A stretch of 30,936 nucleotides of DNA from a virus, in IMG/VR virus record IMGVR_UViG_3300030329_002039, positions 1-30,936 of that record; one strand, 5' to 3'. Below, in pieces: positions 720 to 22,561 of the stretch. Position 1 is the stretch's first letter; the number at the start of each line of letters is the position of its first letter. A program made the translations under genes and the position numbers. A model generated the notes under the pieces. That model did no database searches. It saw only the letters and a program-made list of their open reading frames with translations, and was not told the DNA's origin.

Positions 720-3700
720 TCAATATTGTATTATACGAGGTTGTCTTACCTTCTTTTTATCACCAAATCCTTGTTTCTTTTTAGATTTTCCCACATCTTC
801 AACGCCAAGATTCCACTTGCTCCAACCACTAAACATTAAAACTCGCTCCAAAGCACCGTGTTGGTTGTTCAAAGACTCTCTAACATTCATTGTTTTATTA
901 TATAACCTATTGAGAGGAACGTTTGTAGTTGCTTCTACATAATTTGTTACAGCTGACCATTGAGGATTGTCGATGTCAAACGTCTCCATTTCCTTTATAG
1001 TTTTCTTATTATAATTAAGAGTTTTTTCAGCGTTAACTAGTTTTCTAGCTTTAATACCAAGTGGAGGTGAAACGTTTAACATTTCCATTAATACAGCACT
1101 TTCGTCTTTATTGTAATCTTTATCTCTTTGTTCGTGCCATTTAATAGCCATGTTTTTTAGCGTAGCTATAGCAGAACCCCAAACACCAGTACCTCTTAAA
1201 ACAGAATCAATAGAACCATTGATTATTCTTTCTTTTTTCTTTAAGAATTTTTCATCATCTTCATTATCGTCGAACATCATCATAAACAACGCTGATTGTA
1301 AAGAATAGAATATTAAGTTTTGTATTGCAAAATAATAGGCTATTCTTGACAAATTAGACATATCACTTTGTAATTGAGTTGTATTACCAGGTGTTATCCT
1401 TCTATTTTTAATATCTAAAAACGCTTTTTTACCTAATCTATTAAACTGAGATGTAACATTTTGGAAAGCAAGTATAACTTTACCAAGTGGAGAGGCTTGT
1501 TGTTGCGAAACCATATCTGGTCTTGCTGACTGCTGAGTAGCTTCTGCTAATATTTCAAAATCAGTCCAAGCTTTAGTCTCAGCTTCTTTTTTAGTCATTC
1601 CTTGTTCTAAATATGTATTGATTCTATTTCTTAAAAATGTAGCACCACCAGTAGCAATCGCTATATTATCCCCAATTTGAGTTGGTAAGAAACCTAACTC
1701 TAACAACTTCTTTATTGCCGCTTGAATAGGATTTTTAGCGTTTTTAACCGATGCGGCTAATTCAGCACCATTAACATCTGTTTGAATTCCTTTACGTCTT
1801 TGTTTCATAAAGTCAGAGTTAAATATAGTTGCCCAATCAGCCCAATATTGTTTTTGATTAGCAAAAGCTTTAGCTGCTGCTATAATATTGTTATCAGCGA
1901 AGTTAATGAAATTAACCATAGACATTTGCTGTAATACAGCAGAACGAATGTTAAAGAACATTGTCGAAGCAACAGAACCGTTTAAATAGTTTAAGAATTT
2001 ATTAACTAGAGCGTTTTGTCCACTAGGTCTATTTTGACCAGTCTTAATTCTATACAACATATCTTTGATAGCACTAACAACATCAGCGCCATAAGCAGCT
2101 TCTATTTTATTTAAATTTTCTTCAGAAAATATTATATCTGTGTTTTCGTTAAACTCAGTAAAGAATTCAGCTCTTCCAATTCTACCAGTAGCATCGTCTA
2201 AATCTGTTCTTATATCTCCACCCTCCCAACTTTCAGTAGGCGCAACATACTTTTCTTGTTTAGATATCCAGTTCAACATATCAGCGTAAGTTTGTAATTC
2301 GCTATCATTCATAACTAAATCAACTAATTTTTGTTGATCAGTTGGGGATAATCCAGGGATATTATGACCATGTTTGTCCCACAAGTAAACCCTTATAGCA
2401 TCTTGATATGTAAAATCACCATCTGGAGTTTTCTTAGTTAATTTCTTTTTAATGTTTTCAAACTGTTTGTTTAATGATTTATAATCATTAGCTATAGATT
2501 GTTTAGCCGCGTTTAACTCTCTGTATGCTCTATTTAATGGTCTGATTAAAGCTTTTTCAAAAAAATCTCTATGTTGATTACCTCTTTTGCCTTTGCCCAT
2601 AAAGTTATATAATAAACCTACGAAATCCTCGTGTGATGGTGGTATAAAGAATCTAAACTTACCTTTACTTTCCCCACGTTTTCTAGCTTTAATAGCTGAA
2701 AATCTTTTCTTAGATTCAATACCAGTTACTTCTTCTAATATATTGTTAAAATCATTATTCATTGATTTACTAAACTTAACTTTAGCTTGCTGAACTTTAG
2801 ACTTAACATCGAATTGATTTAACATGTTCTCAACAGCTTGCACGTTTTGTAAAGCATCATCAGCAAAATAGAAGTCATTATAACCTTCGCCAACCTTATC
2901 AGCTATCCAAAGTGCTTTAGCTTCCGATGTAGAATTAGCTAAACCAGTAATATTTTTTAAAGGTATATTTAAACCATTTGCTTTTAAGAAATCAAATATA
3001 GCTTTAGCGGCGGCTGGTGGTCTAGCTGTTAATACAAACATATTCTCAGGACCAAACTTACCTTGTAGTTTTAAAGCCTTTTTAAATAATGGTGCTAACT
3101 TACCTTTTACAACTTTGTTGAAATCTGAAAAATCAAATGTATATCCTTTATCTAATAAATTTTCATATGTACTAGCGTATTCTTCAGCGTTTAAAGTTCC
3201 AGTAGTTCCATCTGGTCTAGTATATTTAACTAAAGATTTAGTTGTAGCTAATGTATCATCAAAATCTAAAACAGTGATACCTTTAGGTTTTTTTAATATT
3301 GATTCAACAAATTCTTTGGCTTTTTGTTTTTGAGCTTGACGTAAATCAAAATTTTTCTTAAAAGCAGATCTAGACATTTGAACAGCACTGTTAAATGTAT
3401 TAACTTCACTTATAGATTTAGAAAATTTAACGCCTGATGGGTAGTGTTTTTGTAACAAACCTGGTAAATAATTAGGATCAGAAATAGAACCCTTTGCTTT
3501 AGAAGTAAATTTAGTTGGGCTAGGCATAATTCTAGGCGCAGTAGTCCCAAACTTCATACCAGAAAAATCTTTAGCCATTTGTGTTGTAAATTTACCTTTG
3601 TCTGTTTTTGCTGGTTTTAAACTAGCTGATCTACTCATTTCTACTTGAGCTTCTGCATCTCCTTCTAGTTGAGTAACATCACCATTAAAAGTTTCGTCTT

Positions 3701-6700
3701 TACCTAAAGAAAAGAAATTACCTAAAAACTCAATATATTGCGAAGGGTGTTTTTTACTTGCGTAAGCGTTTTCTGCTAAAGGACCTAAAGGTATTTTTTT
3801 AACAATTGATTTAACCCTAACGTTTGTTGCTAGGTTTTCGCCAAGAGCAACTTGGTGTACCCAACCTGGAAAAATATCGTTAGAATTTTTTACCAACGGT
3901 AACTTTGGTTGGCCATCTTTTCTTTTAAACTTTTTTATATCAGGAGTTTTTTTACTACCCATATTAACCTCAATTGTCTCGCCATTATTCCAGGCCTCAA
4001 TAGTACTATTAACATTATCGTAGTATTCTTTTATTTCTTTCCTTACTGATTTTACAATTTTTTTTCTATTAATAATTTTTGACCCGTCTTGAGTGCTAAT
4101 ATATGGATCTTTTTTTGTAAACTTTGTGTCACCAGTTTTAACGTCATAACTAGAAATTCGATTAGAAGTTAAACGAACATCAGTAGTTCCTTGTTTTATC
4201 TCTATACCAATTCGCTTGAATACTTTTCCAGAAACATCTTTTATACCAAACATCATGTCAGCCATACTATCAACTTCTGTAGCAAATTCTGTAAGAACTT
4301 GAACTCTATCGTAGTTATCTTGTGTGACAAATCTAGTTAAAAGGTTTATAAACGCCTGTTCTAAGGCTCTTGGTTTATCCACGAATTTACCGGTAGAATA
4401 TAGTTTATCAGTTTCTAATATAACATTTTCAACAAATTGCTTGGTTTGAGAAAACTTAACACTATCAAAGCTACCTATTTGATTGTTTTGATTATCTAAA
4501 GACGCTGAAAGTTTACGCAGCTTAGCATCTACAACTTTGTTTAAGTCTGTGGAATTTGTTTCTATTTGCGTGTCTACAGCTTTTTTTGTTTTAGCCTGAG
4601 CAATAAGTTTCGCTAACGCTTTTTGTCTTGCTAGTAAAGTTGTGTATCCGCCTTCTGTAAAGTGTTTTGTCCACTTTGCTTTGTTAGTGGTTATTTTAAA
4701 TATACCTTTACCAGGATATGTAACTTTACCTGTTATTGGGTTTACTTTTTTATCTTTTTCTCTACCTGTCTTTTCAATGTCAAATAAAGTTTTGTAATTA
4801 TTTTTTATAACATCATCAGATAAAGAGTTTACTATGTCATCATAATTTAATGCGTGCCAAGCTTTGTATTCGTCACTTACAACAACCTCTCCTTTTACCT
4901 TGGAGATTTTACCCATGTCATTAAGAATTATTTTAGTAAATTCTTTTCCTATAAGTTTTTCTAGTTGTTGTTCTATATTTTTCGGATTTTGCTCTATTAA
5001 AGCGTCGACCTCAGCTAAAACTATAGCATTTATTTCTGGATTGTTTTGTAAATCTACTTCGCTTAAATCTTTTAATACCCTAGCTTTAGATTCTACTTTA
5101 GGAGCTTTTTTAGTTTTAGTAGTTGGTTTATCTGCTACTTGCATAGCTTCTTCAGTGTCTATGCTAGTTTCTCTTTTAGTTTTCTCGCCTTTAATAGCTA
5201 GTTTTTTAGCCGCAACTAATTTACCAAAACCTACATTAGCCATTATAAATTCACCAAGACCTCTTGGTCCTATAATAGTACCATCTTTTCTTTTGGCAGC
5301 AGGATCAAAGTTTATTAAACGATCAGTTACAGCATCGATAGTTTCTTGAGTTTTTTCAGGACTCATACCAAGACTTCTTATATAGTTATTTATAGCGCCA
5401 CCAGATTGTAACGATTCAAATACTGGATTAAATGTTTCTGGTTTTTGGAAGTCAGCTTTAGTAGTTGTTCCTTTTTGTAAATCGTTTATTTCATCAATAA
5501 GTTCTTTTCTTTTACCCAAAGCTCTTCGTGTACCTCTATATGAAGTCACGTCACTAGCCATAGCTGCAGCAGCAGCGGCGGTTTTTGATAATTTACCTTC
5601 GGTAACAGTAGCGCCTTCACCAGCTAAAGCTAAAGCTCTAGAACTTAACTTGTTCTTTTCAATGCTTTTACTATAATCTTTTAAGAAGTTATAAGCTTGT
5701 CTGCCGTTTTCAAAATCTTTATTAATTTTAAACTTTCTTAATATTTCTTGTATTATATTTTTAAGTTTATCAAAAACACCTTCGTTAAATGTTATTTCGT
5801 TTTTTTCTATAGCATCAGAAAATGCTGTAAATATTTCTTCTGAAGCAAATATATCGTCTCCTTCTAAACCATAACTTTCTTTTAATCTTTTTCTAACAGC
5901 GGCTTCTTGTGTTTTTGTTAAAACACCCATGAAACTTTTACCAAGGTCTATTCTACCTTCTTCACCTAAACTTTTCATGTGCTTAGCTAAAACAGCATGC
6001 AACACCTCATGTGATCCAACAGATATAGCCCCTGTTCTTCCCGCAACATCTTTATTAATAACAATAGAATCTCCTACTATAAAACCATCACCCTCAGTAA
6101 CATCTTGGTCTTCTATAAGTTTTATTTGGTCATCTGGATTGTTTTTGTTATGCTCTTCAGCGTTTCTATTATGCTCTTCTCTAATTTTATTAAACAAATC
6201 TTGAGCGCTAATACCATCATCGGTTACATGTACATCTTTACCAAGCTTTTCACCAGCAGCTTCTGCAAAAGCAATAGTGTCCGATATACTAATATCTCTT
6301 CTTGCTTTTCTAACATCAGCAGCTTCTTGTGTCGCGGCAACATCGGTTGCCCCTTCGTATTTACTTATTATATCATTAATCTGAGACTCAATGTCTGCTA
6401 AAGCTTTTTCAGCACCAGGTACTTGGTTAACGCCTTCTTTTTTAAGATCCCATTTTGCATTATCTCTTTTTTGGGCCAACACATATAAAGCTTCTCTATC
6501 TTTTTTATCTGTAATTTTTTTATCAATTTGAGAATCTAATATAGCTCTTTGTTGTTTTTCGTTTGCTTTAGCATCTAATCCAGTGAGATCATTTTCCATT
6601 TTTATATTAGCCATAGCAACATCTATATCGTCAGCTGTATCAACAAAATCTTTCATTTCGTTGTAAGTAACTTCTTTACCGTTTAATTTGTAAACAGGTG

Positions 6701-7838
6701 TTTTATGTTTTAATAAGGCTAAACCAACGTTTCCAGGTGCTGTTACTGTACCTGTTATAGCTTCAAATCCAATTTCAGCAGGATCCATTTCTTGGTCGGC
6801 AGCTAATCTACCACCAACCTCACCTAAACCACCACCAACAGCCTCAACACTAGTACCAGCCGTGGCACCAGCCAACATAGATCTTTTACCTCCTCTACCA
6901 ACTGTTTTACCCGCTTTCATAGCAGCGCCCGCGGCTAAAGTAGTGGCTTTACCAGCAATACCACCTGTAAGCGCTTCTACACCACCAATTGTTAAACCTC
7001 TACCAATTGCCTTGTTTCTTATTGATTTTCCTTTAGGACCTTCTAAAAGAGCTTTAATATTTACGTCTGTAAATTCTTTACCCTCCTTTTTTAATTCTTC
7101 TTCTATTAATTCTCCAAATGTTAAAGCGGCTTCCATTGATGTTGCTAAACCACCCATAGCACCAGCGAAACCAGTACCAAGAGCACCCCAACCAAGATAT
7201 GATCCAGCGGCAACTCCAGAACCAGCGCCAATAGCAGTTGCTTTTCTAGCTTCATCACTATCAAAAGCTGTGCCTAGTTGAGTGCCTAAAGACTGAACAA
7301 ATAATTCAGCCATTAATTTTGGGTCTCTTCCTACGCCTCTAAAAAATGCAGACCAAGTTTTACCCTCTTTCTCGTATTGCTTTTGAAACTTTTGCATTCT
7401 TTCAGATGGAACATGTGCTCTAGCTTCGCTTTCTTTTGCTTTAATAAATTCCCGGATAGTTTCCATGTCTACATTAGAGCGTTCCATTAAAAGATCGGCT
7501 GCTTCACCAGTTGTACTAGCAGCGGCCCAACCTCTGCCAAACCAAGTATTACTAAACCAACTACCGTCTTGTGATTCCGAAGAACCATCGTCCAATTGTG
7601 ACCCCATACTTTCTTGGCTCATCGTCGGGTCTCCCGTCGAGCCTGCTTGCTTTCCCAAACCTAATAAATTAGAAAAATCTTGCTTAGATTTTTTATAACC
7701 AGCTCCAGCAAAAAGATTAAAAGCATCATCAAATGCTTGTTCGTTTGAGTTAATTAGTGCTAAAAAATTATCTTTAGAGCCAGTATAACCAGCACCAGTA
7801 AATAATTGATAAGCATCGTTTAAAGCCTGTTCGTTCAT
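720..7838 (-). CDS. Giant polyvalent internal/ejection protein with metallopeptidase-like and HAD-like domains (2,372 aa)
   Basis: It lies in the T7 gene 16 position, after two other internal-protein candidates. Visible parts in order: two 30-aa repeats (residues 2-31 and 32-61); a Ser/Gly/Asp-rich linker (about 65-95); Gly/Ala-rich, possibly membrane-active stretches (about 200-240 and 278-345); an HEVLH zinc-peptidase-like site (610-614) with candidate third ligand Glu667 or Glu668; long Lys-rich helical and linker regions; a HAD-type domain with D1525-x-D1527-x-T1529, T1604 in VLTARP, K1641 and D1660-D1661; then a helical C-terminal region with a hydrophobic segment at about 2166-2189. A V-K-F-S-[KR]-S-type motif recurs at 748, 1127, 1399, 1470, 1486 and 1687. 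T7 gp16 is 1,318 aa, so this is nearly twice as long. I saw no clear transglycosylase motif. The start follows an AT-rich leader 13 bases after the 656-aa gene, and the stop is TGA. The ejection role is inferred from context. Confidence 0.85.
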   Translation of the reverse strand: MNEQALNDAYQLFTGAGYTGSKDNFLALINSNEQAFDDAFNLFAGAGYKKSKQDFSNLLGLGKQAGSTGDPTMSQESMGSQLDDGSSESQDGSWFSNTWFGRGWAAASTTGEAADLLMERSNVDMETIREFIKAKESEARAHVPSERMQKFQKQYEKEGKTWSAFFRGVGRDPKLMAELFVQSLGTQLGTAFDSDEARKATAIGAGSGVAAGSYLGWGALGTGFAGAMGGLATSMEAALTFGELIEEELKKEGKEFTDVNIKALLEGPKGKSIRNKAIGRGLTIGGVEALTGGIAGKATTLAAGAAMKAGKTVGRGGKRSMLAGATAGTSVEAVGGGLGEVGGRLAADQEMDPAEIGFEAITGTVTAPGNVGLALLKHKTPVYKLNGKEVTYNEMKDFVDTADDIDVAMANIKMENDLTGLDAKANEKQQRAILDSQIDKKITDKKDREALYVLAQKRDNAKWDLKKEGVNQVPGAEKALADIESQINDIISKYEGATDVAATQEAADVRKARRDISISDTIAFAEAAGEKLGKDVHVTDDGISAQDLFNKIREEHNRNAEEHNKNNPDDQIKLIEDQDVTEGDGFIVGDSIVINKDVAGRTGAISVGSHEVLHAVLAKHMKSLGEEGRIDLGKSFMGVLTKTQEAAVRKRLKESYGLEGDDIFASEEIFTAFSDAIEKNEITFNEGVFDKLKNIIQEILRKFKINKDFENGRQAYNFLKDYSKSIEKNKLSSRALALAGEGATVTEGKLSKTAAAAAAMASDVTSYRGTRRALGKRKELIDEINDLQKGTTTKADFQKPETFNPVFESLQSGGAINNYIRSLGMSPEKTQETIDAVTDRLINFDPAAKRKDGTIIGPRGLGEFIMANVGFGKLVAAKKLAIKGEKTKRETSIDTEEAMQVADKPTTKTKKAPKVESKARVLKDLSEVDLQNNPEINAIVLAEVDALIEQNPKNIEQQLEKLIGKEFTKIILNDMGKISKVKGEVVVSDEYKAWHALNYDDIVNSLSDDVIKNNYKTLFDIEKTGREKDKKVNPITGKVTYPGKGIFKITTNKAKWTKHFTEGGYTTLLARQKALAKLIAQAKTKKAVDTQIETNSTDLNKVVDAKLRKLSASLDNQNNQIGSFDSVKFSQTKQFVENVILETDKLYSTGKFVDKPRALEQAFINLLTRFVTQDNYDRVQVLTEFATEVDSMADMMFGIKDVSGKVFKRIGIEIKQGTTDVRLTSNRISSYDVKTGDTKFTKKDPYISTQDGSKIINRKKIVKSVRKEIKEYYDNVNSTIEAWNNGETIEVNMGSKKTPDIKKFKRKDGQPKLPLVKNSNDIFPGWVHQVALGENLATNVRVKSIVKKIPLGPLAENAYASKKHPSQYIEFLGNFFSLGKDETFNGDVTQLEGDAEAQVEMSRSASLKPAKTDKGKFTTQMAKDFSGMKFGTTAPRIMPSPTKFTSKAKGSISDPNYLPGLLQKHYPSGVKFSKSISEVNTFNSAVQMSRSAFKKNFDLRQAQKQKAKEFVESILKKPKGITVLDFDDTLATTKSLVKYTRPDGTTGTLNAEEYASTYENLLDKGYTFDFSDFNKVVKGKLAPLFKKALKLQGKFGPENMFVLTARPPAAAKAIFDFLKANGLNIPLKNITGLANSTSEAKALWIADKVGEGYNDFYFADDALQNVQAVENMLNQFDVKSKVQQAKVKFSKSMNNDFNNILEEVTGIESKKRFSAIKARKRGESKGKFRFFIPPSHEDFVGLLYNFMGKGKRGNQHRDFFEKALIRPLNRAYRELNAAKQSIANDYKSLNKQFENIKKKLTKKTPDGDFTYQDAIRVYLWDKHGHNIPGLSPTDQQKLVDLVMNDSELQTYADMLNWISKQEKYVAPTESWEGGDIRTDLDDATGRIGRAEFFTEFNENTDIIFSEENLNKIEAAYGADVVSAIKDMLYRIKTGQNRPSGQNALVNKFLNYLNGSVASTMFFNIRSAVLQQMSMVNFINFADNNIIAAAKAFANQKQYWADWATIFNSDFMKQRRKGIQTDVNGAELAASVKNAKNPIQAAIKKLLELGFLPTQIGDNIAIATGGATFLRNRINTYLEQGMTKKEAETKAWTDFEILAEATQQSARPDMVSQQQASPLGKVILAFQNVTSQFNRLGKKAFLDIKNRRITPGNTTQLQSDMSNLSRIAYYFAIQNLIFYSLQSALFMMMFDDNEDDEKFLKKKERIINGSIDSVLRGTGVWGSAIATLKNMAIKWHEQRDKDYNKDESAVLMEMLNVSPPLGIKARKLVNAEKTLNYNKKTIKEMETFDIDNPQWSAVTNYVEATTNVPLNRLYNKTMNVRESLNNQHGALERVLMFSGWSKWNLGVEDVGKSKKKQGFGDKKKVRQPRIIQY
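2844..3278 (-). other. HAD-superfamily phosphatase-like domain inside the giant protein
   Basis: Residues about 1521-1665 carry all four HAD motifs in order: ITVLDFDDTL (nucleophile D1525, acid D1527), VLTARP (T1604), a Lys in S-E-A-K (K1641), and FYFADD (D1660, D1661). The spacing fits a small cap-type member. It is flanked by V-Q-M-S-R-S at 1486 and V-K-F-S-K-S at 1687, which frame it as a discrete module. The substrate cannot be told from sequence; phage polynucleotide kinase/phosphatase-type and nucleotidase HADs are both possible. Confidence 0.85.
5997..6011 (-). other. HEVLH zinc metallopeptidase-like motif
   Basis: Residues 610-614 of the 2,372-aa protein read H-E-V-L-H, within S-V-G-S-H-E-V-L-H-A-V-L-A-K-H. 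The flanks fit an HExxH active-site helix: a small residue before it and hydrophobics after it. A-S-E-E-I-F at 665-670 is a plausible third-ligand helix. Whether the site is active, and what it cuts, is unknown. Confidence 0.7.
7656..7835 (-). repeat. Two tandem 30-residue repeats at the N-terminus of the giant protein
   Basis: Residues 2-31 and 32-61 align without gaps. Both begin N-E-Q-A, then share D-A-[YF]-x-L-F-x-G-A-G-Y, then S-K-x-[ND]-F and a final Leu-rich turn. The pattern A-x-x-L-F-x-x-x-G-Y followed by a Phe and Leu suggests a small helical hairpin unit. It may be a docking or packaging tag; that is inference. Confidence 0.85.
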
Positions 7839-12754: not shown

Positions 12755-15700
12755 TTATTTACTACTTTCTGTTATTTCTGAACTAACAGCAAATAACTCA
12801 GCTTTTTGTTTAGAATTATTTTCAAACATTATATCTGCGTAGTAACCAGATAATCCATTCATATTTACCACCTGGTTTTTCACAAATAAACAGTAATCAT
12901 TTTTCGTTGGTAACGCTCCACTATCATCTAAAGTTATAGTGTTATTATTTATATTAGTAACTACACCAGCTTTTTCCAACTGATTAGAATCTAATCTTGT
13001 AAAACCAAGCGTTCCACCTGTTACAACTGTAGGTTTCTCATAATAAACAACATCACCTATTTGAATAGAAGTATTTAAATCCCCACTAATAGTTATATTG
13101 TTGTTACTAATATTTTCAATTATTCCTAAACCTTGAATGTCAAATGATCCAAAATCAACATTACTATAATCGTTAAGTTCATCGTTTGTTGATATAGTGT
13201 TAACACCTTTAATGTAATTAAACCATTTACCTTCTTTCTTTATAAACTCAAGTAAACTACCTTCTTCGTTATTAGTTTTTACACCGCTAACATACCAACC
13301 GTCTGTTGGTGTAGAATTAAAGTGGTCGACACTATCTTCTTGTAATTGTGTTGTTATAATATCTCCAACTTCAAAATCACCAGGGTTAGAAGCAGTGCCC
13401 CAACTTCCATCAGACATTGTTCTTCTTCCAAAACCTTTTGTTGGTCCACCAGAAGGTGAAGCTGGTTGTGTTCCCAAATAATCATTATTCCAAAGTAACA
13501 TTAAACCAGTATGAATAAGTATATTGTTTCGGTATTGTTTCATTTCAACTGTAGGAGGAACAGAAGTTGAACCAACTACAACATGCCAATCTGCCTGAGA
13601 AAATAAAGAATTAGCTTCTTGTTCTTCAAAAAAGAAATATCTACCATCATTGCTGTTATAAAATTCTACCCCTGTGACTTTTATTGTTTTAACACCCTCA
13701 ATTCTAGACTGACTACCTTCATATTCTAATGTGTGATATGATTTTATACTACTAGGCGCGTCGTTTAATATTGCGTTAAAAGTAGAGTTTGTAAATTCGT
13801 TATAAAAAGTATTTCTATTTATACCTGGAACATGGTGTTGCCATAATTTACCGTTTTTTAAAGTATAATAATCATTTGCACAACTTAAACCATTTTCTGG
13901 TATAAACGATTTAAAACTCACCCAACCCCTTATATCTTCTCTAAATGAAACTGTGTTTAAATCTTCACCGTGAATAGTAACATTATATTCGTCTTGTCTG
14001 TCATCATAACTACCAATTATCTTTAAATCTTCTTTTACTACCTCTTGTACAATTATGTTTTTAATTTTAACAATCCCTAAATATGCTTGAGAATTGCCCC
14101 ATGTTTGAACCTGTGCGCCACCACCAGTAGTAGTAGAACCCGAACCAGATCCAGATACATATCCCAAGTTAGCCATAAATTGACTAATGCTAATACCGTC
14201 ATACGTTCTCGTGCCAGAAGAGTCTGTGGTTGTCACTTGGTATTGTAAGAGATCAAAAGTTGTTCTTTCAGCAACCCAAGTAACGTTAACATAAGCACCA
14301 TCTGTATTGCTGTTAGTCATATCACCAACACCTTGCCAAGTTCCTGGTGGAGAATTATTTATAGTTATTGAACTATATTCACCACTATTTTGAGAATATT
14401 TTTGATATCCACTATGCTCTACAACATCAAACTGCAACCTATAAGTTTTGCCAATTTCTAACACATCATGCATTCTCATGCTTGATGGTTTACCAAACTT
14501 AGGATGTCCAGGTTGATCGTTGTAGTAACCTAAAATAGCTTCACCATTTATTATTCTAAAGTTACCAGCCATATTCCAATTATCTTCTGAAGCGAGATTA
14601 TTTTCGCCTAACAAATTAGTTACGCCTAAAGATAAATTGTCTCTAAACCAATCTTTCATACCATGATCAGATATAGGTGTTAAGCCATCTTTAGATAATC
14701 TCATAACTGTTCCTCTAACTCTATCTGTAAAATATGCTCTATAAGCTTCTGAAGCAAATGATTCTGGATTTTTAGATATACCATATTCCCCTACGAAAGG
14801 TACTGTTTGCCCTAAAACATTTTGATTAGCTGTTAATTGAGGATTGCCATCTGCGTTAAATACCGCATCTTTGTTGGCTAATATTTTTAATACTTTGTCT
14901 TCACAAAGCGTAACTAAATCTGTGTCTCTTGAGTGTAATTTTTGTATACTACCGTATATAGGATTTATATCTTTAGTTATTTTCTCTGCTGATATAAATT
15001 GATTCAAATTGTTTACACCCGAAATAGAGTTATATAAACCAGAATATATTAAACCATATTTTCTATGCTCTTCACCATCTGAAGGAAAAGGAATTGTCGT
15101 AGAAGCTTTTACTCCATTAGAAATAAAAGGTAGATTAAAATTATCTCTTATTCTATCTGATTCAACACCATTTCCAAAAGCAAAACAATTATGCCAAGAT
15201 AAAATATACTTATTATTATACTGATTAGGATCTACATAAACGTAATTTCGTGGTACGGTATTATAATTCCAAGTAAACCCAGGAGGACTTACAACCTGAA
15301 CAATAATACTAGAACCATCTGGTTTAGTTATTTTTAATTCATCGTTTGGTTGTAAATAGCTACTACCAGTAATGTTACCATAAAAAATATTTGAATCAAA
15401 ACGTATATACCATAAAGGAGAGTAACCGATAGATTGCTCTACTTGCGTTACTTTAACATCTGAATTTGCAAAAACACTTTCAAATGTATTTCCATAAGGA
15501 ACCACTGTAGACGCTAATGGTATAGCTATATGTTTATTTTCTTCACTTAATACCATTGGGTTATATCCACTAGCCTCGTAGTATATATCTAATTCTTGAG
15601 TTTCTTTAGGTTCTGTTTCCCACACAGCTGGATTAACAGGCATTCCAGGTTCTTTTTCTATCTCTTCTACAAATTGAAAAGTGTAACAAACTGGCATTAT

Positions 15701-18700
15701 TCTAGGTATTCTAGAGTCATCATGTTCAGCTGTAACGTAAGATGATACATCGTAATACCCAGTATTGGTCATAGCAGCCGTCCACCGTATATGTTGATTT
15801 ATTCTATTACAAGAATACTGATTATAACCATTCAGTTTAGGTTGTTTAAACACCATATTTTGACCAGATGCTGGTTGTGTAGTGTAAAAATCATGCGCGT
15901 ATGTACCTGGTATATAAGTAATAGCGGCTTTACACATAGGCGTTCTATATCCAGTTAAATGTATATTCCATCTATCTATAGAACTATCTTTTTCAATTTT
16001 CCATATTAAAAGTTCTTCTCTTGCTTGACTACCATTGTAAGTCGTACCACCATTAGAGTGACTAGTTAATATCATGCCTTCTTGAAGAGTGTGTATCTCG
16101 CCATCTATAGTGTTTGTTGCTTGTAAACTAGCTACATATACTTTTGGATCATCACCTGTTACTGTACCAGCTATTGCAGCTGATATTGTTAACTCTAAAC
16201 CTGTACTTATAGGTCCTAAACTACCAGTTGGATTCCAAGGTACATTTCCTTCATTGTTTTTATCAATTGCTGAAACTTGCCATTCTTGTGAAAAATTTGG
16301 AGATAATTGAGCGGCAACCTCACGGTTATCTTGCCAGTCTTGACTACCTTGACCTTTATATGAGCCAAAATCATTTGGATAATCCACATTACTAGCCCCC
16401 GAAGTTCCTCCTCCAGGACCAGGGTGTAATGGCCCAGAGTACGGAGTAGCCCATCTAACATGTCCATTTTCACTTACTAAGTTTTTAATTGTATAAACAT
16501 TATTATTAGGGTCTTCTTTCCATCTAAAAGAAACACCTCCATTTAATTTTTCAACTATAGAACTTGTGCCACCACTGTAAGAAGGGTTACCACCATCCTT
16601 ACCTACATTCCAAAAATTTTCGATTTCAGTGAGTTGATCTTGCCGCATAGAATCCTCATGAAATATACCACCAATATTAATACTCCATAAAGAAAAATCT
16701 TCGTTGTTGTGATTAGCGTTAATACCATTAGAAGCAGTTGTAACATCATCACTAACTCTATCCCATTGGAAATCCATTTTATCACCTAGATGATTGTTAC
16801 TTACTTTTCCACGTCTAGGCCCTTCGTTTATAAACCAAACAGCGTGTTCACCTCTTCTAGGATTTTTATATGACTCGCCGTTATCGTCAGCTCTTTTGGT
16901 ATCAGCTGCGCTAACACCATTACTCCCGCAAGCCATAAATTTATCATCGGCAAATACATTACCATATGCTTGGTTAGTTTGACCATAGTCATAAAGAGGA
17001 TAGGCTGTGATCCAGGCTAACTCATCAACCCAATCAGCGTCGCCGGGATTTGGGACATCAGGAAGTTTAGGCCCAAAAGCATATTGACCAACATCCCAAC
17101 CCCCTTGGGTGTTGAAACCATTTTTCTTCATTTTATGCTCATCTTTTCGCTTGTTGTAATTCCTAAAATAACAAGCCCAAGGACCCATTCCTTGAATAAA
17201 ATTGTCAGATGTATCGCTATTTTGATCCCCTCTATCCGCGTATACACCAGCTTTCATGCCAGTCCATTTCTGTCCGTGTGTATCTTCATGGTCACCACGT
17301 ATTGAATACATTTTTTTAGCAGCTAAAACTCTATATTCAGGTTCGGTATCAACTTCTAATTGAGAAGCTAAGATAATGTTTGAATTTACTGATTGATTAA
17401 TGTTTATTTTCGCAAAAAATCTACCATCAAATTGAGCAGAGTTTTTAGGTATATATTTGTATACTCTTAACGCTACACCCTCTCTAATTTTAGTAGGAGA
17501 ATATCCACTCGCATCATCTGTTATAAAATTAACGTCATCACCTAGCTTTTTTACTAACCTAAACGTATACTTCACAGTGGATACACCAGTTTGCCCATAT
17601 GAATCCTCAGAAATACTGGATATTTGATATCTTTTTGAAGCAACTTTAGTAACGGTATCTACAAATTCAATCCATAAAAACTCGTCCCAAGTATGCATTT
17701 TAGCACTAGAACCAGCGTTGAAAGGTTCATAAAAAGTTTTAAAAGTATTTAATCCTTCTAAAGGAACGTCTATCAATGTAGTTCCAAATAAGTTATCAGG
17801 CGTACCAGTAGTAGAAGTTATACGATGAGTTATTTCTTCTATTAAAAACTTTTTCATTTTAATAAACTCAGGGGCATTTTCTTGAATATCCAACACTTTA
17901 TATTTAGTGGTATCTTCTACTAAACTACTGCTTTCTAACCCTTTTTTTAATATTATAAAATCATCAATTACTACTTTGTTTATATCAGACGATGGAAAAG
18001 ATAACCATATTTGACCGTCTTCAGCATCAAAATGTCTATCCATTGCTAAGTTGTAATATTCACCAGAAGGTTCTTTTACAAAGAACTTAAAGTAATCTAA
18101 ATTTTCTGGCGGATTAATATCATTAAATGATACTGCGAATGTATTTTTTTTATCAGCATAGATTTTTTCAATTTTTGTTGTACCTGTTTTATTAGAAACA
18201 ACAGGTGTTTCTCTACCGTATTTGTCTACAAATAAAGCGCCAATTTGATATTCCCTTAAAGATTTAATAGATGATTCAGTATTAGAACCTATATTGGTAA
18301 ATTCATTTTGTAAACTAAAATTAGGATAATAGTCACTACCATTTTGAGTTACCAAATCATAGCCTTGAGTATAATTACCGTATATAATTCTACTACCACT
18401 AACTTCTTGCGCTAATGCTTTTTTAGGTACATTATCCCAAGGTCTCAATAATTGATTAGATTCTATAGCTCTATTTATCTGTTCAGATTCTATAATATAT
18501 TCGTTTTCATCCCAGTGATTACCGCTTGTATTTGAGGTTGATGCATGCTGCGGTTTTATTGTATCAACAATATATAAATTTGTTGATGCATCATCTTTGT
18601 AAATTATATCTATTTCTGAAACACCTGTTTCGTATATATTTTGTTTAAAATCACTAACGGTAATTTTTGTTATTCTATTTACCATTCCGAGATTATAACC

Positions 18701-20941
18701 TTTTTTAGGGTGATAGTCAAAACCACCAGGTAAAAAACATACTTCAGAAAAAGGAGATATTGCTGAATACTCACCATCTTGATATTTGTATCTATATGCG
18801 ATTCTTGGAAATTTAAATTCAAATAATTTATCTGAATCCATGAATTTATCAACAGCATATTTCATCTCATCTAAATTTGATGGAACGACTGGAGGCGTGC
18901 CATTAATACCTAGTATTTTACATCTGACTTGGGCATCGGAAGCGTCTAAACGTATTAAAGATACGTTTTTTATAGCACCATTAAAACCATCGTAGCCATC
19001 ATTTTGAAATACTATTTTGTTTTGATAAGCATTCCAACTTTGATACGGTCCAGTATTAGCATTGTTGGCGTTGGCTTGTGTTATTGTAAAGTCTTGCTCG
19101 TAATGGCCATTTGAAGTAGCTGTTATACGATAAGTCCAACCCCCGACGGTAGAAGAACCTGGATTTATAATATTATTAGATACGAATAAAGTCGCGTTTA
19201 ATTTACCCCCGCCTGAGGGAGGCATATCTACAATGTCAAAACTAAATCTATATGTTGATCCTAAACTAAGGACGGTAGCAGTGTAATTGTTATAACTACC
19301 AGTATATGATTTTCTCCAAATCCCACTTGAGCTAGCCGGAACACTATAAATTATTTTTTCATCGTTTATATTATAAGAAATGTCAGATCCTGAGCTTTTA
19401 CCCCAACCCTGTGGAAAATTACCATCCGAATCAGGTATATCCAAAGGAGGGGATAATTCGGTTTGTTCGTCAGAAAAATTATTAACTGGACCCGACGATG
19501 GATCTGGCAAAATTTCTGCTTTAATAGTAAAGTCTGTTATTGGAATAGAAGGTGTTTCGCTAAAATTAACTCCTCCAAAAGGTTTGAAATGTAGTATGTC
19601 ACCAACAGCCCAATCTAACGTAAAACCACTATTACCGTTTAAATCTGTTTCTATTCTTGTTCTAAATTCACTACCAACGACAAATTGAGACCAATCATAA
19701 TAATGATTTAGCCAATCCGCGTGATTTAACCAAAAAGAAGAGGTATTATTATAATTACCACCATCACCAAGTATGGGATTACCACTATAATCAAGACCAG
19801 GCGCATCACCACCTTGTTCAGTGAACGGTATTGATGGTCTACCCGTTATTCTCATTATTCCAGAATAATTTAAATTTGGATCTCTACCAGTGTGTAATTG
19901 TATTTTAGGTGCTCTTGGTGGTTTCTTTTTAATAACAGTAATATGCTCCTCTTTTATGTCGCAGTAAACGTCTGTTTTTTCATTAATAAATTCTGTGTGA
20001 ACTAGACCACTTGAATCAGTGCCTAGTATTGAGCGTGGGATATTGATTTTTTTTGGTTCAGAATAATCATCTGTCCAAAATAACATGTCATCAATTATAT
20101 TAATACCTGTGATTAATCTATCTCGAGAAAATTTCAATACGTCACCCTGTGTATCTACTACTACGGGTGTTATCAAATTGGTTTTTGAATCGTATTCTAT
20201 TATGTAACTATTACGTTCAACTAAAGATAACTGTTGTGCACTCACTCTTTTTTGAACATTATTACCATCAGTTAGTTCAACGGCAAAAGCCATTTTTTCA
20301 ACATTATTGTTTAGAGATTTATCAAACTTAAATGTATTTACTTTTTCGCCAACTACAACATTTGTATCATAATAAGGTCTATAGCTGTTATCACCTCCAC
20401 TAACACCATAAACAAACGCCTTGGTACTATCTTGAGAGCCAGAATTATCAACTTCTTTAAATTTTGTTTTTACCTCATAAGTTCTTCCGTCAACCAAGTC
20501 AATAGGATCATGCGCGTATAGTGGAGATGGCGTACCAGTTGGATCACCACTAGATTCTATTACAACTTTATCTTTTGGTACGTATGTAGCTATATTACCA
20601 CCTGTTGGTGTCCATTTAGTAATTAATTGAGAGAGTGGAAGTGGTGGCTCTGGAATAGGAGTAACGTTCTGTAAAACTTCTCGATTGTCTTCAACAAAAT
20701 AATATAGTTTATCATTTTTTTCATCAGAAATACTACCAACACAATAAGCTGTATCACTTATAAAGTTTTGTCCAATAACTAAAGAATTACCTAATATATT
20801 TTGAATAGTGCCGACTTCAGAACCTTCTGAGGTTGACACTTGTATATTCATCGCGTCTCTATATTCTCCATTAGGAATAAGTCTCTCGTCAAGATCCTTA
20901 TCCATCTTACCCTTAGTAAAATGATGTTTAATCTCCGGCAT
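12755..20941 (-). CDS. Giant tail hub/nozzle (stabilisation-type) protein with inserted beta-sandwich modules (2,728 aa)
   Basis: It occupies the T7 gene 12 position after the adaptor proteins. The N-terminus (GKMDKDLDERLIPNGEYRDA, residues 11-30) matches my memory of nozzle/stabilisation proteins of marine podoviruses. Further core blocks are FPRIAYRYKYQDGEYSAISP (711-730), NQLLRPWDNVPKKALAQE (829-846) followed by I-I-Y-G-N-Y, and a block near residues 2000-2095 (CEDKVLKILANKDAVFNADG, RLSKDGLTPISDHGM). Between them lie at least three jelly-roll-like insertions, each with G-x-T-Y-x-[FVL] strands: about 105-243, 505-667 and 2114-2300. They resemble carbohydrate-binding modules and may contact host surface glycans. 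The C-terminus has L-S-G-Y-Y-A-D and K-A-E-L-F-A-V. T7 gp12 is 794 aa, so this is over three times longer. It starts 3 bases after the upstream stop. The tail role is well supported; the binding role is inference. Confidence 0.85.
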   Translation of the reverse strand: MPEIKHHFTKGKMDKDLDERLIPNGEYRDAMNIQVSTSEGSEVGTIQNILGNSLVIGQNFISDTAYCVGSISDEKNDKLYYFVEDNREVLQNVTPIPEPPLPLSQLITKWTPTGGNIATYVPKDKVVIESSGDPTGTPSPLYAHDPIDLVDGRTYEVKTKFKEVDNSGSQDSTKAFVYGVSGGDNSYRPYYDTNVVVGEKVNTFKFDKSLNNNVEKMAFAVELTDGNNVQKRVSAQQLSLVERNSYIIEYDSKTNLITPVVVDTQGDVLKFSRDRLITGINIIDDMLFWTDDYSEPKKINIPRSILGTDSSGLVHTEFINEKTDVYCDIKEEHITVIKKKPPRAPKIQLHTGRDPNLNYSGIMRITGRPSIPFTEQGGDAPGLDYSGNPILGDGGNYNNTSSFWLNHADWLNHYYDWSQFVVGSEFRTRIETDLNGNSGFTLDWAVGDILHFKPFGGVNFSETPSIPITDFTIKAEILPDPSSGPVNNFSDEQTELSPPLDIPDSDGNFPQGWGKSSGSDISYNINDEKIIYSVPASSSGIWRKSYTGSYNNYTATVLSLGSTYRFSFDIVDMPPSGGGKLNATLFVSNNIINPGSSTVGGWTYRITATSNGHYEQDFTITQANANNANTGPYQSWNAYQNKIVFQNDGYDGFNGAIKNVSLIRLDASDAQVRCKILGINGTPPVVPSNLDEMKYAVDKFMDSDKLFEFKFPRIAYRYKYQDGEYSAISPFSEVCFLPGGFDYHPKKGYNLGMVNRITKITVSDFKQNIYETGVSEIDIIYKDDASTNLYIVDTIKPQHASTSNTSGNHWDENEYIIESEQINRAIESNQLLRPWDNVPKKALAQEVSGSRIIYGNYTQGYDLVTQNGSDYYPNFSLQNEFTNIGSNTESSIKSLREYQIGALFVDKYGRETPVVSNKTGTTKIEKIYADKKNTFAVSFNDINPPENLDYFKFFVKEPSGEYYNLAMDRHFDAEDGQIWLSFPSSDINKVVIDDFIILKKGLESSSLVEDTTKYKVLDIQENAPEFIKMKKFLIEEITHRITSTTGTPDNLFGTTLIDVPLEGLNTFKTFYEPFNAGSSAKMHTWDEFLWIEFVDTVTKVASKRYQISSISEDSYGQTGVSTVKYTFRLVKKLGDDVNFITDDASGYSPTKIREGVALRVYKYIPKNSAQFDGRFFAKININQSVNSNIILASQLEVDTEPEYRVLAAKKMYSIRGDHEDTHGQKWTGMKAGVYADRGDQNSDTSDNFIQGMGPWACYFRNYNKRKDEHKMKKNGFNTQGGWDVGQYAFGPKLPDVPNPGDADWVDELAWITAYPLYDYGQTNQAYGNVFADDKFMACGSNGVSAADTKRADDNGESYKNPRRGEHAVWFINEGPRRGKVSNNHLGDKMDFQWDRVSDDVTTASNGINANHNNEDFSLWSINIGGIFHEDSMRQDQLTEIENFWNVGKDGGNPSYSGGTSSIVEKLNGGVSFRWKEDPNNNVYTIKNLVSENGHVRWATPYSGPLHPGPGGGTSGASNVDYPNDFGSYKGQGSQDWQDNREVAAQLSPNFSQEWQVSAIDKNNEGNVPWNPTGSLGPISTGLELTISAAIAGTVTGDDPKVYVASLQATNTIDGEIHTLQEGMILTSHSNGGTTYNGSQAREELLIWKIEKDSSIDRWNIHLTGYRTPMCKAAITYIPGTYAHDFYTTQPASGQNMVFKQPKLNGYNQYSCNRINQHIRWTAAMTNTGYYDVSSYVTAEHDDSRIPRIMPVCYTFQFVEEIEKEPGMPVNPAVWETEPKETQELDIYYEASGYNPMVLSEENKHIAIPLASTVVPYGNTFESVFANSDVKVTQVEQSIGYSPLWYIRFDSNIFYGNITGSSYLQPNDELKITKPDGSSIIVQVVSPPGFTWNYNTVPRNYVYVDPNQYNNKYILSWHNCFAFGNGVESDRIRDNFNLPFISNGVKASTTIPFPSDGEEHRKYGLIYSGLYNSISGVNNLNQFISAEKITKDINPIYGSIQKLHSRDTDLVTLCEDKVLKILANKDAVFNADGNPQLTANQNVLGQTVPFVGEYGISKNPESFASEAYRAYFTDRVRGTVMRLSKDGLTPISDHGMKDWFRDNLSLGVTNLLGENNLASEDNWNMAGNFRIINGEAILGYYNDQPGHPKFGKPSSMRMHDVLEIGKTYRLQFDVVEHSGYQKYSQNSGEYSSITINNSPPGTWQGVGDMTNSNTDGAYVNVTWVAERTTFDLLQYQVTTTDSSGTRTYDGISISQFMANLGYVSGSGSGSTTTGGGAQVQTWGNSQAYLGIVKIKNIIVQEVVKEDLKIIGSYDDRQDEYNVTIHGEDLNTVSFREDIRGWVSFKSFIPENGLSCANDYYTLKNGKLWQHHVPGINRNTFYNEFTNSTFNAILNDAPSSIKSYHTLEYEGSQSRIEGVKTIKVTGVEFYNSNDGRYFFFEEQEANSLFSQADWHVVVGSTSVPPTVEMKQYRNNILIHTGLMLLWNNDYLGTQPASPSGGPTKGFGRRTMSDGSWGTASNPGDFEVGDIITTQLQEDSVDHFNSTPTDGWYVSGVKTNNEEGSLLEFIKKEGKWFNYIKGVNTISTNDELNDYSNVDFGSFDIQGLGIIENISNNNITISGDLNTSIQIGDVVYYEKPTVVTGGTLGFTRLDSNQLEKAGVVTNINNNTITLDDSGALPTKNDYCLFVKNQVVNMNGLSGYYADIMFENNSKQKAELFAVSSEITESSK

Positions 20942-20944
20942 ATA

Positions 20945-22561
20945 TTAGTGTTTTATCCACTTAGATTTACCTCTAAGTATTTGAGTTAATTCTTCTAATT
21001 TGACATTAGATAATCTTAGTTTTGCTTTTCTAGTTTCAGCAAATTTTTCTTTTTTAAATCTTGGTGCTAATTGTTGGTGTATTGGTAAAGAAGAAGTTGA
21101 TAAAATAGCATAGGCAATCCATTTATACATCGCTTCTTCTGCAAATTTGTGAACTTGCATTTCTTCTTCTGTTCCAAGACTATCACTTATATAATCTAAG
21201 ATCACAGTTTTTCCGGAAATATTAGAACTAAAATGTATTCTTCCTAATCTATTGTCTATAAAAAACGAACCGTTAGTCTGTGCATGGGAAGGTTCTAATC
21301 CATATCTTTCTCCATCTATTGGCCAATATACATCATCTTCGTAGTCATCATTGTTATTTTCTGAAGGGGTTGTTGATTTGTAGTTGTTCCAAGTAGATGA
21401 TTCTGTTTCGTTACCAACCTTTGGTGTTAAATAACTTAAGGCTTGACTTGATTTTAACGATACATTATCTATAGAATTTTGTAGTGTAGGAGTACCAGTA
21501 CTCCACACCGATGTTATGGCTGCGTTTGCATGTAGAGAGTGTTCAACGTATGAAACAATTATTAAATAAACTTTATCAACTTTCCCAACTTCGATATTAT
21601 TTAGTTCTTTTGTAGCAGTTGTAGATCCAGCTGCAGCTGGTCCTCTCCATTCTAAATAACTAGATTCATCTTCAGTTGTTGTAAGATCAAACATATCTGG
21701 ATTTAAGTTTTTACTCGTGTGAACCTCACCTCCAGAACTCATATTATTTAAATTATTCCAATGACTTTCGTCTGGAGGACTAGTGCTTAACCCAACTCTT
21801 AAAACACCAATCTGATCTTTAGTTAAAGGCACCGAACCTTGAGTCGTTAATACTTGATCCCAAGCAACTGTGTCAGCAACTCCATCGGCAGATAATGTTA
21901 AGTATGATTTATCAGAAGTATCTATCTCTTGCCAAACAGCGTATACAATACCATTATTATATCCGTTTAATCCGTTTATAGTGTGATATGCAAATTTTAA
22001 TGTACCACCATCTATCGTGGGTCCAAGATTTCCAAAAGTAGTACTGGTTAAGTTTGGATTAGTAGAATTTGGAGATACTAAATTCCAAGGTGTTTGAGAT
22101 AGTAATCCCGATGAACCATAGTCTCCATCAAGTGCTAATTCAACATTTGCAGGAAATTCATATCCTCCACCATCATCTTGTCTAATTTGAAACGGATTGT
22201 TTGTATGTTTCGTTGGGTATATAAGGTGTTTTATACCAGCGGTATCAACCCAAGATAGTTTAGTATAATTTACATAGTCATGTGGAAGTGGCATTACTAA
22301 AGAAGCTGGTAAATCTATTTGTTGTGATTTTATAGATTTAAGTGTGTCAAACGAGAATTCTTGCAAAGCCCTCATTGCGTGAAACTGAATGTCTGTTTTA
22401 TTTATTTTAGGTATTATCTTGTTTTTACCAACGTAAGCCACTTCAAATTGAGCTATTAATTCTTGTAGAGATATAAATTGATATCCACCAAAAACCTCAG
22501 TTCCTTCAACTCCATAACCTTTGTAATAATCTTTTTGTGTAGTATTGTCTAATAATCCCAT
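20945..22561 (-). CDS. Tail adaptor/ring protein with an inserted beta domain (538 aa)
   Basis: The two ends look like one conserved adaptor fold split by an insertion. The N-terminal part (1-120) has a helix with K-I-N-K-T-D-I-Q-F-H-A-M-R-A-L-Q-E-F and strands L-P-A-S-L-V-M-P-L-P-H-D-Y-V. The C-terminal part (about 410-538) has the strand pair F-F-I-D-N-R-L-G-R-I-H-F / V-I-L-D-Y-I-S-D and a helix pair ending in a basic tail. This matches ring or adaptor proteins of Bacteroidota podoviruses as I remember them. Residues about 140-375 are Ser/Thr/Asn/Gly-rich beta sequence (G-I-V-Y-A-V-W-Q-E-I-D; V-Y-L-I-I-V-S-Y-V) like the modules in the next gene. It probably joins portal to nozzle. It starts 4 bases after the 288-aa gene and stops 3 bases before the hub gene. 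Confidence 0.8.
   Translation of the reverse strand: MGLLDNTTQKDYYKGYGVEGTEVFGGYQFISLQELIAQFEVAYVGKNKIIPKINKTDIQFHAMRALQEFSFDTLKSIKSQQIDLPASLVMPLPHDYVNYTKLSWVDTAGIKHLIYPTKHTNNPFQIRQDDGGGYEFPANVELALDGDYGSSGLLSQTPWNLVSPNSTNPNLTSTTFGNLGPTIDGGTLKFAYHTINGLNGYNNGIVYAVWQEIDTSDKSYLTLSADGVADTVAWDQVLTTQGSVPLTKDQIGVLRVGLSTSPPDESHWNNLNNMSSGGEVHTSKNLNPDMFDLTTTEDESSYLEWRGPAAAGSTTATKELNNIEVGKVDKVYLIIVSYVEHSLHANAAITSVWSTGTPTLQNSIDNVSLKSSQALSYLTPKVGNETESSTWNNYKSTTPSENNNDDYEDDVYWPIDGERYGLEPSHAQTNGSFFIDNRLGRIHFSSNISGKTVILDYISDSLGTEEEMQVHKFAEEAMYKWIAYAILSTSSLPIHQQLAPRFKKEKFAETRKAKLRLSNVKLEELTQILRGKSKWIKH

Follow-up and report, generated by a model that had tools for sequence, protein, structure and literature searches.

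The muzzle at the tail tip of crAss001 is hexameric, and its barrel rings are dodecameric (PMC10172136). Length variation of muzzles by insertion has already been reported for crassviruses, with insertions in the crass and IG2 domains, and the word "carbohydrate" is absent from the main text of that paper (PMC10172136). A second relevant system is the "evolved Dit" known from siphophages of lactococci, lactobacilli, and streptococci, a conserved ring protein of the tail tip whose loops carry carbohydrate-binding modules (CBMs) in some of the related phages and not in others. The affinity of these CBMs for the host is below that of the main receptor-binding protein (PMC7291167), and once skunaviruses had been supplied with an evolved Dit, they could again infect EPS-producing lactococci (PMC10688798). 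In the tail genes of crAssphage, BACON tandem repeats are putative carbohydrate-associated beta-sandwiches gained by transfer (PMC6949934). Among isolates, Cellulophaga phage phi38:1 (muzzle gp097; Callevirus, Pervagoviridae) and the Flavobacterium elemo phages have a muzzle core homologous to the one described here and the same portal-to-muzzle gene order; their muzzles are of 1,324-1,493 aa, their ring-like protein is of about 283-286 aa, and four sites of the muzzle are without modules.

The window, i.e., the whole stretch of DNA analysed here, is a 30.9-kb fragment (IMG/VR record IMGVR_UViG_3300030329_002039, positions 1 to 30,936), which ends inside the gene upstream of the portal. Its muzzle gene lies next to the ring-like genes, downstream of the portal and capsid genes, and the order portal, structural genes, two ring-like genes, and muzzle is that of phi38:1. 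The module boundaries given below were set from gain/loss alignments and are slightly wider than those of the initial annotation, which had missed M4 and the insert in the next gene upstream.

12755..20941, minus strand: crAss-type muzzle (tail-tip, nozzle-like) protein of 2,728 aa, matching phrog_14478 and PF25729, carrier of the modules
20201..20677, minus strand: M1, CBM4/9-like module (aa 89-247), between strands of the propeller-like part
18938..19483, minus strand: M2, CBM4/9-like module (aa 487-668), in the beta-hairpin DFTIKAEIL...AQVRCKILGIN
14024..14608, minus strand: M3, probable CBM4/9-like module (aa 2112-2306), after DHGMKDWFRDNL
13676..13819, minus strand: part of crAss_MUZ_C upstream of M4 (profile 2-54 of 83)
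13301..13708, minus strand: M4, unrelated inserted module (aa 2412-2547), which splits crAss_MUZ_C
20945..22561, minus strand: gene of a 538-aa ring-like (tail barrel) protein, immediately upstream of the muzzle gene and bearing an insertion port of its own
21407..22153, minus strand: RW-type insert in the ring-like protein (aa 137-385)

The muzzle ORF matched phrog_14478 (virion structural) in five stretches (E 7.9e-122), and each of the 25 C-terminal parts in the alignment hit PF25729 (crAss_MUZ_C) with E <= 0.01, the best value being 7.9e-10. In the window muzzle, where M4 splits the domain, it scored 20.5-21.4 bits against a curated cut-off of 27; in the insert-free homologue L003 it is unbroken (profile 2-81) and scored 31.9 bits, and in phi38:1 67.9 bits. 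As PF25729 is present in the aligned members, L003, and phi38:1, the window protein is best called a crAss-type muzzle, not a "nozzle". With crAss001 gp44 (PF25729, crAss_MUZ_C; PF25731, crAss_MUZ) it appears to have in common a homologous C-terminal domain and a propeller-like core. Sequence and profile searches of the PDB returned zero relatives, so that gp44 could not be placed by sequence. Relatives of the window muzzle were found on 33 viral contigs, and in L024, L029, L031, and L034 the muzzle frame is broken into two or more ORFs, through either gene fission or sequencing error. Elsewhere in the window, positions 720-7838 encode a 2,372-aa protein whose sole match is phrog_32588 (unknown function; aa 103-513); giant genes of 5-12 kb also close the corresponding cluster in isolates.

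From our comparison of these relatives, M1-M3 are precise insertions in a conserved muzzle core that are gained and lost between relatives. The insert lengths at the four muzzle sites fall into two classes, empty and occupied. In alignment with the window, L003 has the full core with all sites empty, and its flanking core joins with almost no linker, as expected from the proposal in the initial annotation that the segments interrupt core blocks. M1 is missing from L003, L004, L021, L023, and L024, and the M2 site is filled only in the window, L035, L002, L022, and L024, with a short linker elsewhere. M3 is missing at its exact position from every relative in alignment A4; at this site 3, DNLKL of the aligned relatives runs almost straight into LIGSYDD, and L026 carries an M1-type module about 20 residues past this point. 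The contig with the highest core identity to the window (L035, 61%) has M1 and M2 and is without M3 and M4, and the isolates phi38:1, elemoD, and ctfjg026 have nothing at sites 1, 3, and 4 and lack the site-2 domain. The window and L035 have an identity of 43% in M1 and 33% in M2, as compared to 61% in the core; the shared modules are thus more diverged than the core, not the most conserved parts of the protein. Some segment strands are continuous with core strands in the AlphaFold2 model, which might suggest that the segments belong to the muzzle core itself and have merely diverged; however, many relatives are cleanly without the segments and keep their flanks intact, and the M1 type is relocated to other sites and genes, so that this explanation is barely credible and the segments are hardly integral to the core propeller.

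The three segments carry a common strand pattern, L..G.TY.[FVL].[FT].[VFI], which occurs exactly three times in the muzzle, once per segment (aa 149, 558, and 2161; LVDGRTYEVKTKF, LSLGSTYRFSFDI, and LEIGKTYRLQFDV), as had been noticed earlier. In 2,000 residue shuffles of the muzzle the pattern did not occur (mean 0.0; looser form, mean 0.037), a test that is partly circular as the pattern was originally derived from these very segments. The looser form was present in 16 of 24 CBM-like modules, the majority from relatives. The ending I-K-N-[VI]-x-[LV] attributed to the last two segments is also present in the sequence, as IKNVSL in M2 and IKNIIV in M3. Profile comparison linked M1 and M2 with several ring-port modules in one set (M1-RB-RC-M2), with core controls below 1%. 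With the family itself left out, the M1 family matched the remaining modules at 96.8% (hhalign, E 3e-10) and the M2 family at 96.5% (E 9e-10), and M2 of the window alone matched the other modules at 93.8% (E 1.7e-7). Going by these profile links, M1 and M2 belong to a wider CBM4/9-like module set. M3 alone detected no relative among the viral contigs, and its profile match to the set covered 17 residues at 15.9% probability, with an hhalign score of 25.2 against a maximum of 18.8 in 60 shuffles; together with the motif and the gain/loss pattern, this match weakly suggests a kinship of M3 to the set.

Comparison with Pfam places the set near CBM_4_9 (PF02018). The ring insert of L029 scored 25.9 bits, exactly at the gathering cut-off (E 1.5e-5), and the M1-type insert of L009 scored 23.1 bits (E 1.1e-4; cut-off 25.9). 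Among the window modules, M1 reached 15.3 bits (best E 0.027) against the same cut-off of 25.9 and M2 and M3 gave no hit to CBM_4_9; because these scores are below the Pfam cut-off, we name the modules CBM4/9-like and not members of CBM_4_9. Several Pfam scans of the relatives' modules returned only names at chance level, and no relative of M1 was found among phage records or confirmed in bacterial genome contigs. An insert of 764 aa (about aa 1907-2658) occupies site 3 of the L018 muzzle and apparently holds two CBM4/9-looking stretches, neither of which was linked to other modules in a family-by-family profile comparison.

The folds were predicted with AlphaFold2 for aa 1-705, a model in which many core strands are confident and the modules poor (10-residue block means of 37-79 in M1 and 25-74 in M2). 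In this low-confidence model, M1 matched the porphyran-binding CBM 8xmz (Z 8.6, rmsd 2.4, 98 residues aligned), CBM4 1gui (Z 7.2), and also CBM86, and M2 matched CBM16 and CBM4 structures at Z 7.0-7.5 (CBM16 2zey, Z 7.5; CBM4 1cx1, Z 7.3) and, with CBM6 and CBM35 included, at Z 6.4-7.5. For both modules, CBMs were the best single-domain matches (Z 7.0-8.6). Such Z values of 7-8.6 are modest; they fall within, or close to, those at which a common arrangement may match. The modelled part of the putative propeller (core aa 60-342, read across M1) aligned with propeller structures, YWTD ones among them, with a highest Z of 8.8. In Foldseek searches with the 705-aa model, zero matches were obtained in the PDB at E <= 0.001 and ten in BFVD at the same threshold, mostly unnamed and of low TM-score. 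The predicted folds of M1 and M2 therefore appear, at low model confidence, to resemble CBM4, CBM16, and the porphyran-binding CBM. The model of aa 1863-2572, which holds M3 and M4 in context, had a mean pLDDT of 40.6, and no fold claim is made for M3. For M1 and M2, the initial description of all three segments as jelly-roll, CBM-like modules thus agrees with their profiles and predicted folds; for M3 it is weakly founded.

The exchange of modules is not confined to the muzzle. The ring-like protein directly upstream matched phrog_13977 in two separate stretches, and its gene is syntenic with gp096 of phi38:1 (283 aa); its identity as a ring is inferred, Pfam giving no confirmation. In the relatives, the content of its port is of several kinds, CBM4/9-like modules (M1-type or other) among them, and L034 has hardly any insert there. 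The RW insert of the window, despite a similar look, showed no profile link to the CBM-like set. M1-type modules occupy site 1 in the window, L002, and L035 as well as site 3 in L026, and L009 has one within its ring-like gene. The muzzle cores of L014 and L033 share 93% identity and the N-parts of their ring-like proteins 97%, yet the two phages have dissimilar ring inserts (149 and 225 aa). By contrast, identities of 77-81% were seen for the RA module among L035, L008, L021, and L023, the cores of which are 49-60% identical; such high identity across distant cores points to horizontal transfer. On the core tree, which is unrooted and leaves gain and loss indistinguishable, ring-port type required 14 changes as compared to a mean of 14.4 with shuffled labels, so that ring-port content tracks the core phylogeny no better than chance, as if unrelated to it. 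The occupancy of muzzle sites 1 and 2 does track the core tree (2-3 changes against about 5 when shuffled), and each of the three CBM-like occupancies of site 3 is an event of its own on this tree. No long repeats suggestive of a diversity-generating or transposing element were found. The GC content of the modules differs little from the core value and gives no sign of a recent foreign origin. The CBM4/9-like module set, therefore, moves between ports, genes, and phage lineages, and the gain and loss in related phages, for which the initial annotation proposed to look, extends to exchange between phages.

M4 is a second mobile module family, distinct from M1-M3. It is missing from most relatives in the alignments, and its profile found two copies each in the muzzles of L002 and L022 and one in that of L026, a copy in a second ring-like gene of L012 (7108-8280), and a copy as a free-standing gene in L033 (17997-18713). 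At site 1, the muzzles of L008, L012, L016, L017, and L020 carry inserts about 390-480 aa long that are not CBM-like in look. Inserts of unrelated kinds in other ports (M4, RW, and, at site 1, those of 400-480 aa) show nothing to suggest kinship with lectins; they would suit an explanation in which all inserts are decorations of a structural kind, jelly-roll and other domains that loops tolerate, bracing the muzzle or occupying the space between muzzle and barrel and binding no glycan. Muzzle insertions are known as "length variations" in crassviruses (PMC10172136), and jelly-roll modules can be purely structural. Nevertheless, both the replacement of ring-port content between phages with 93% core identity and the transfer of modules of about 80% identity between distant phages suggest selection for surface diversity, and bracing is dispensable, since many ports are simply empty. 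We consider the structural explanation unlikely, though deserving of attention.

Fibres need to be considered before a role in adhesion is assigned to the modules. Of the window proteins that were scanned, none was recognised as belonging to a fibre family, which would suit the modules being the phage's sole receptor-binding elements in place of tail fibres, as the initial annotation had proposed. The window is only a fragment, however, and fibre-like genes of relatives lie elsewhere. In phi38:1, gp085, a fibre-type gene of 976 aa upstream of the terminase, carries Peptidase_S74 (endosialidase chaperone domain; E 1.4e-7), and the longer relative G003 (68.7 kb) encodes one protein with a match to a tail-fibre PHROG (E 2.3e-9) and a second with a match to the lectin family Laminin_G_3, both genes lying outside the equivalent stretch. 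The missing fibre in the window consequently says nothing about the phage, and as relatives with empty muzzle ports exist (L003), receptor binding by the modules alone is very improbable. Laminin_G_3 lectin-like genes were also seen on the portal/terminase side in the relatives L050 (14864-15655, above the cut-off) and L053 (14519-15289).

Our preferred explanation, which we consider probable, is that the modules are independently folding CBM4/9-like jelly rolls in fixed surface loops ("ports") of the muzzle and putative aids to glycan adhesion. In a podovirus-type muzzle, they would most likely be auxiliary glycan-adhesion modules similar to the CBMs of evolved Dit, and such swappable modules probably help the phage to stick to its bacterial host. 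Conceivably, the modules point outward from the muzzle, as the crAss001 structure would suggest, and if the muzzle is a hexamer as in crAss001, each tail tip would hold many module copies. Weak, multivalent binding to the host capsule or surface polysaccharide near the gate could then hold the muzzle against the envelope, aiding adsorption and muzzle opening and assisting fibres encoded elsewhere. The swapping of a module would retune the phage to new surface glycans and leave the conserved gate untouched. The ligand could instead be an environmental polysaccharide, e.g., an algal or particle-bound glycan that flavobacteria feed on, which would concentrate the phage where hosts grow. The best single-domain fold match of M1 is the porphyran-binding CBM, and the nearest isolates infect Cellulophaga, Flavobacterium, Tenacibaculum, and Maribacter. 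Fold likeness does not reveal the ligand, however, the position at the tail tip favours contact with the host, and the module-bearing contigs are uncultured, a polysaccharide-feeding host being an assumption; we regard an environmental ligand as improbable. For the clade as a whole, uncultured phages related to flavobacterial ones, we tentatively propose, at somewhat less than even chances, that barrel and muzzle form a docking frame whose several fixed ports take up lectin-like and other modules by horizontal exchange, at a pace that in the ring gene exceeds the divergence of the core lineage; part of the adaptation to surface glycans would then lie in the tail tube and not in fibres.

The likeness to evolved Dit is in the optional CBMs within loops of a conserved tail-tip protein, the CBM nature of the window modules being in this comparison a matter of profile and fold; the BppA CBM of the evolved-Dit group resembles CBM4 1GUI (PMC7291167), which the M1 model matches too. 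The carrier there is Dit, whereas here it is a propeller muzzle matching phrog_14478 and the crAss muzzle families, so that the window protein is no evolved Dit itself, though it would function in a similar way. Unlike the siphophages with evolved Dit, the window phage is podovirus-type, with flavobacterial relatives, several ports per protein, and a second carrier gene. Length variation by insertion is common to crassvirus muzzles and this one, but the window modules lie in propeller-side and hairpin loops and M4 splits crAss_MUZ_C, at places other than the crass and IG2 insertions. Gain by transfer is likewise a likeness to BACON repeats, which are Ig-like arrays in a separate protein whereas the modules here are jelly rolls inside the muzzle. 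As far as our searches show, the carrier, the ports, and the pattern of exchange are new, and a CBM-decorated tail tip is known in general. If the preferred explanation is true, the gate protein of crAss-type tails would be a scaffold for interchangeable adhesion domains, and the evolved-Dit principle would extend from siphophages of Gram-positive hosts to podovirus-type phages of Bacteroidota. It gives testable predictions as to which modules, which loops, and which phages are concerned, and host-range prediction from fibre genes alone may overlook part of the adhesion apparatus.
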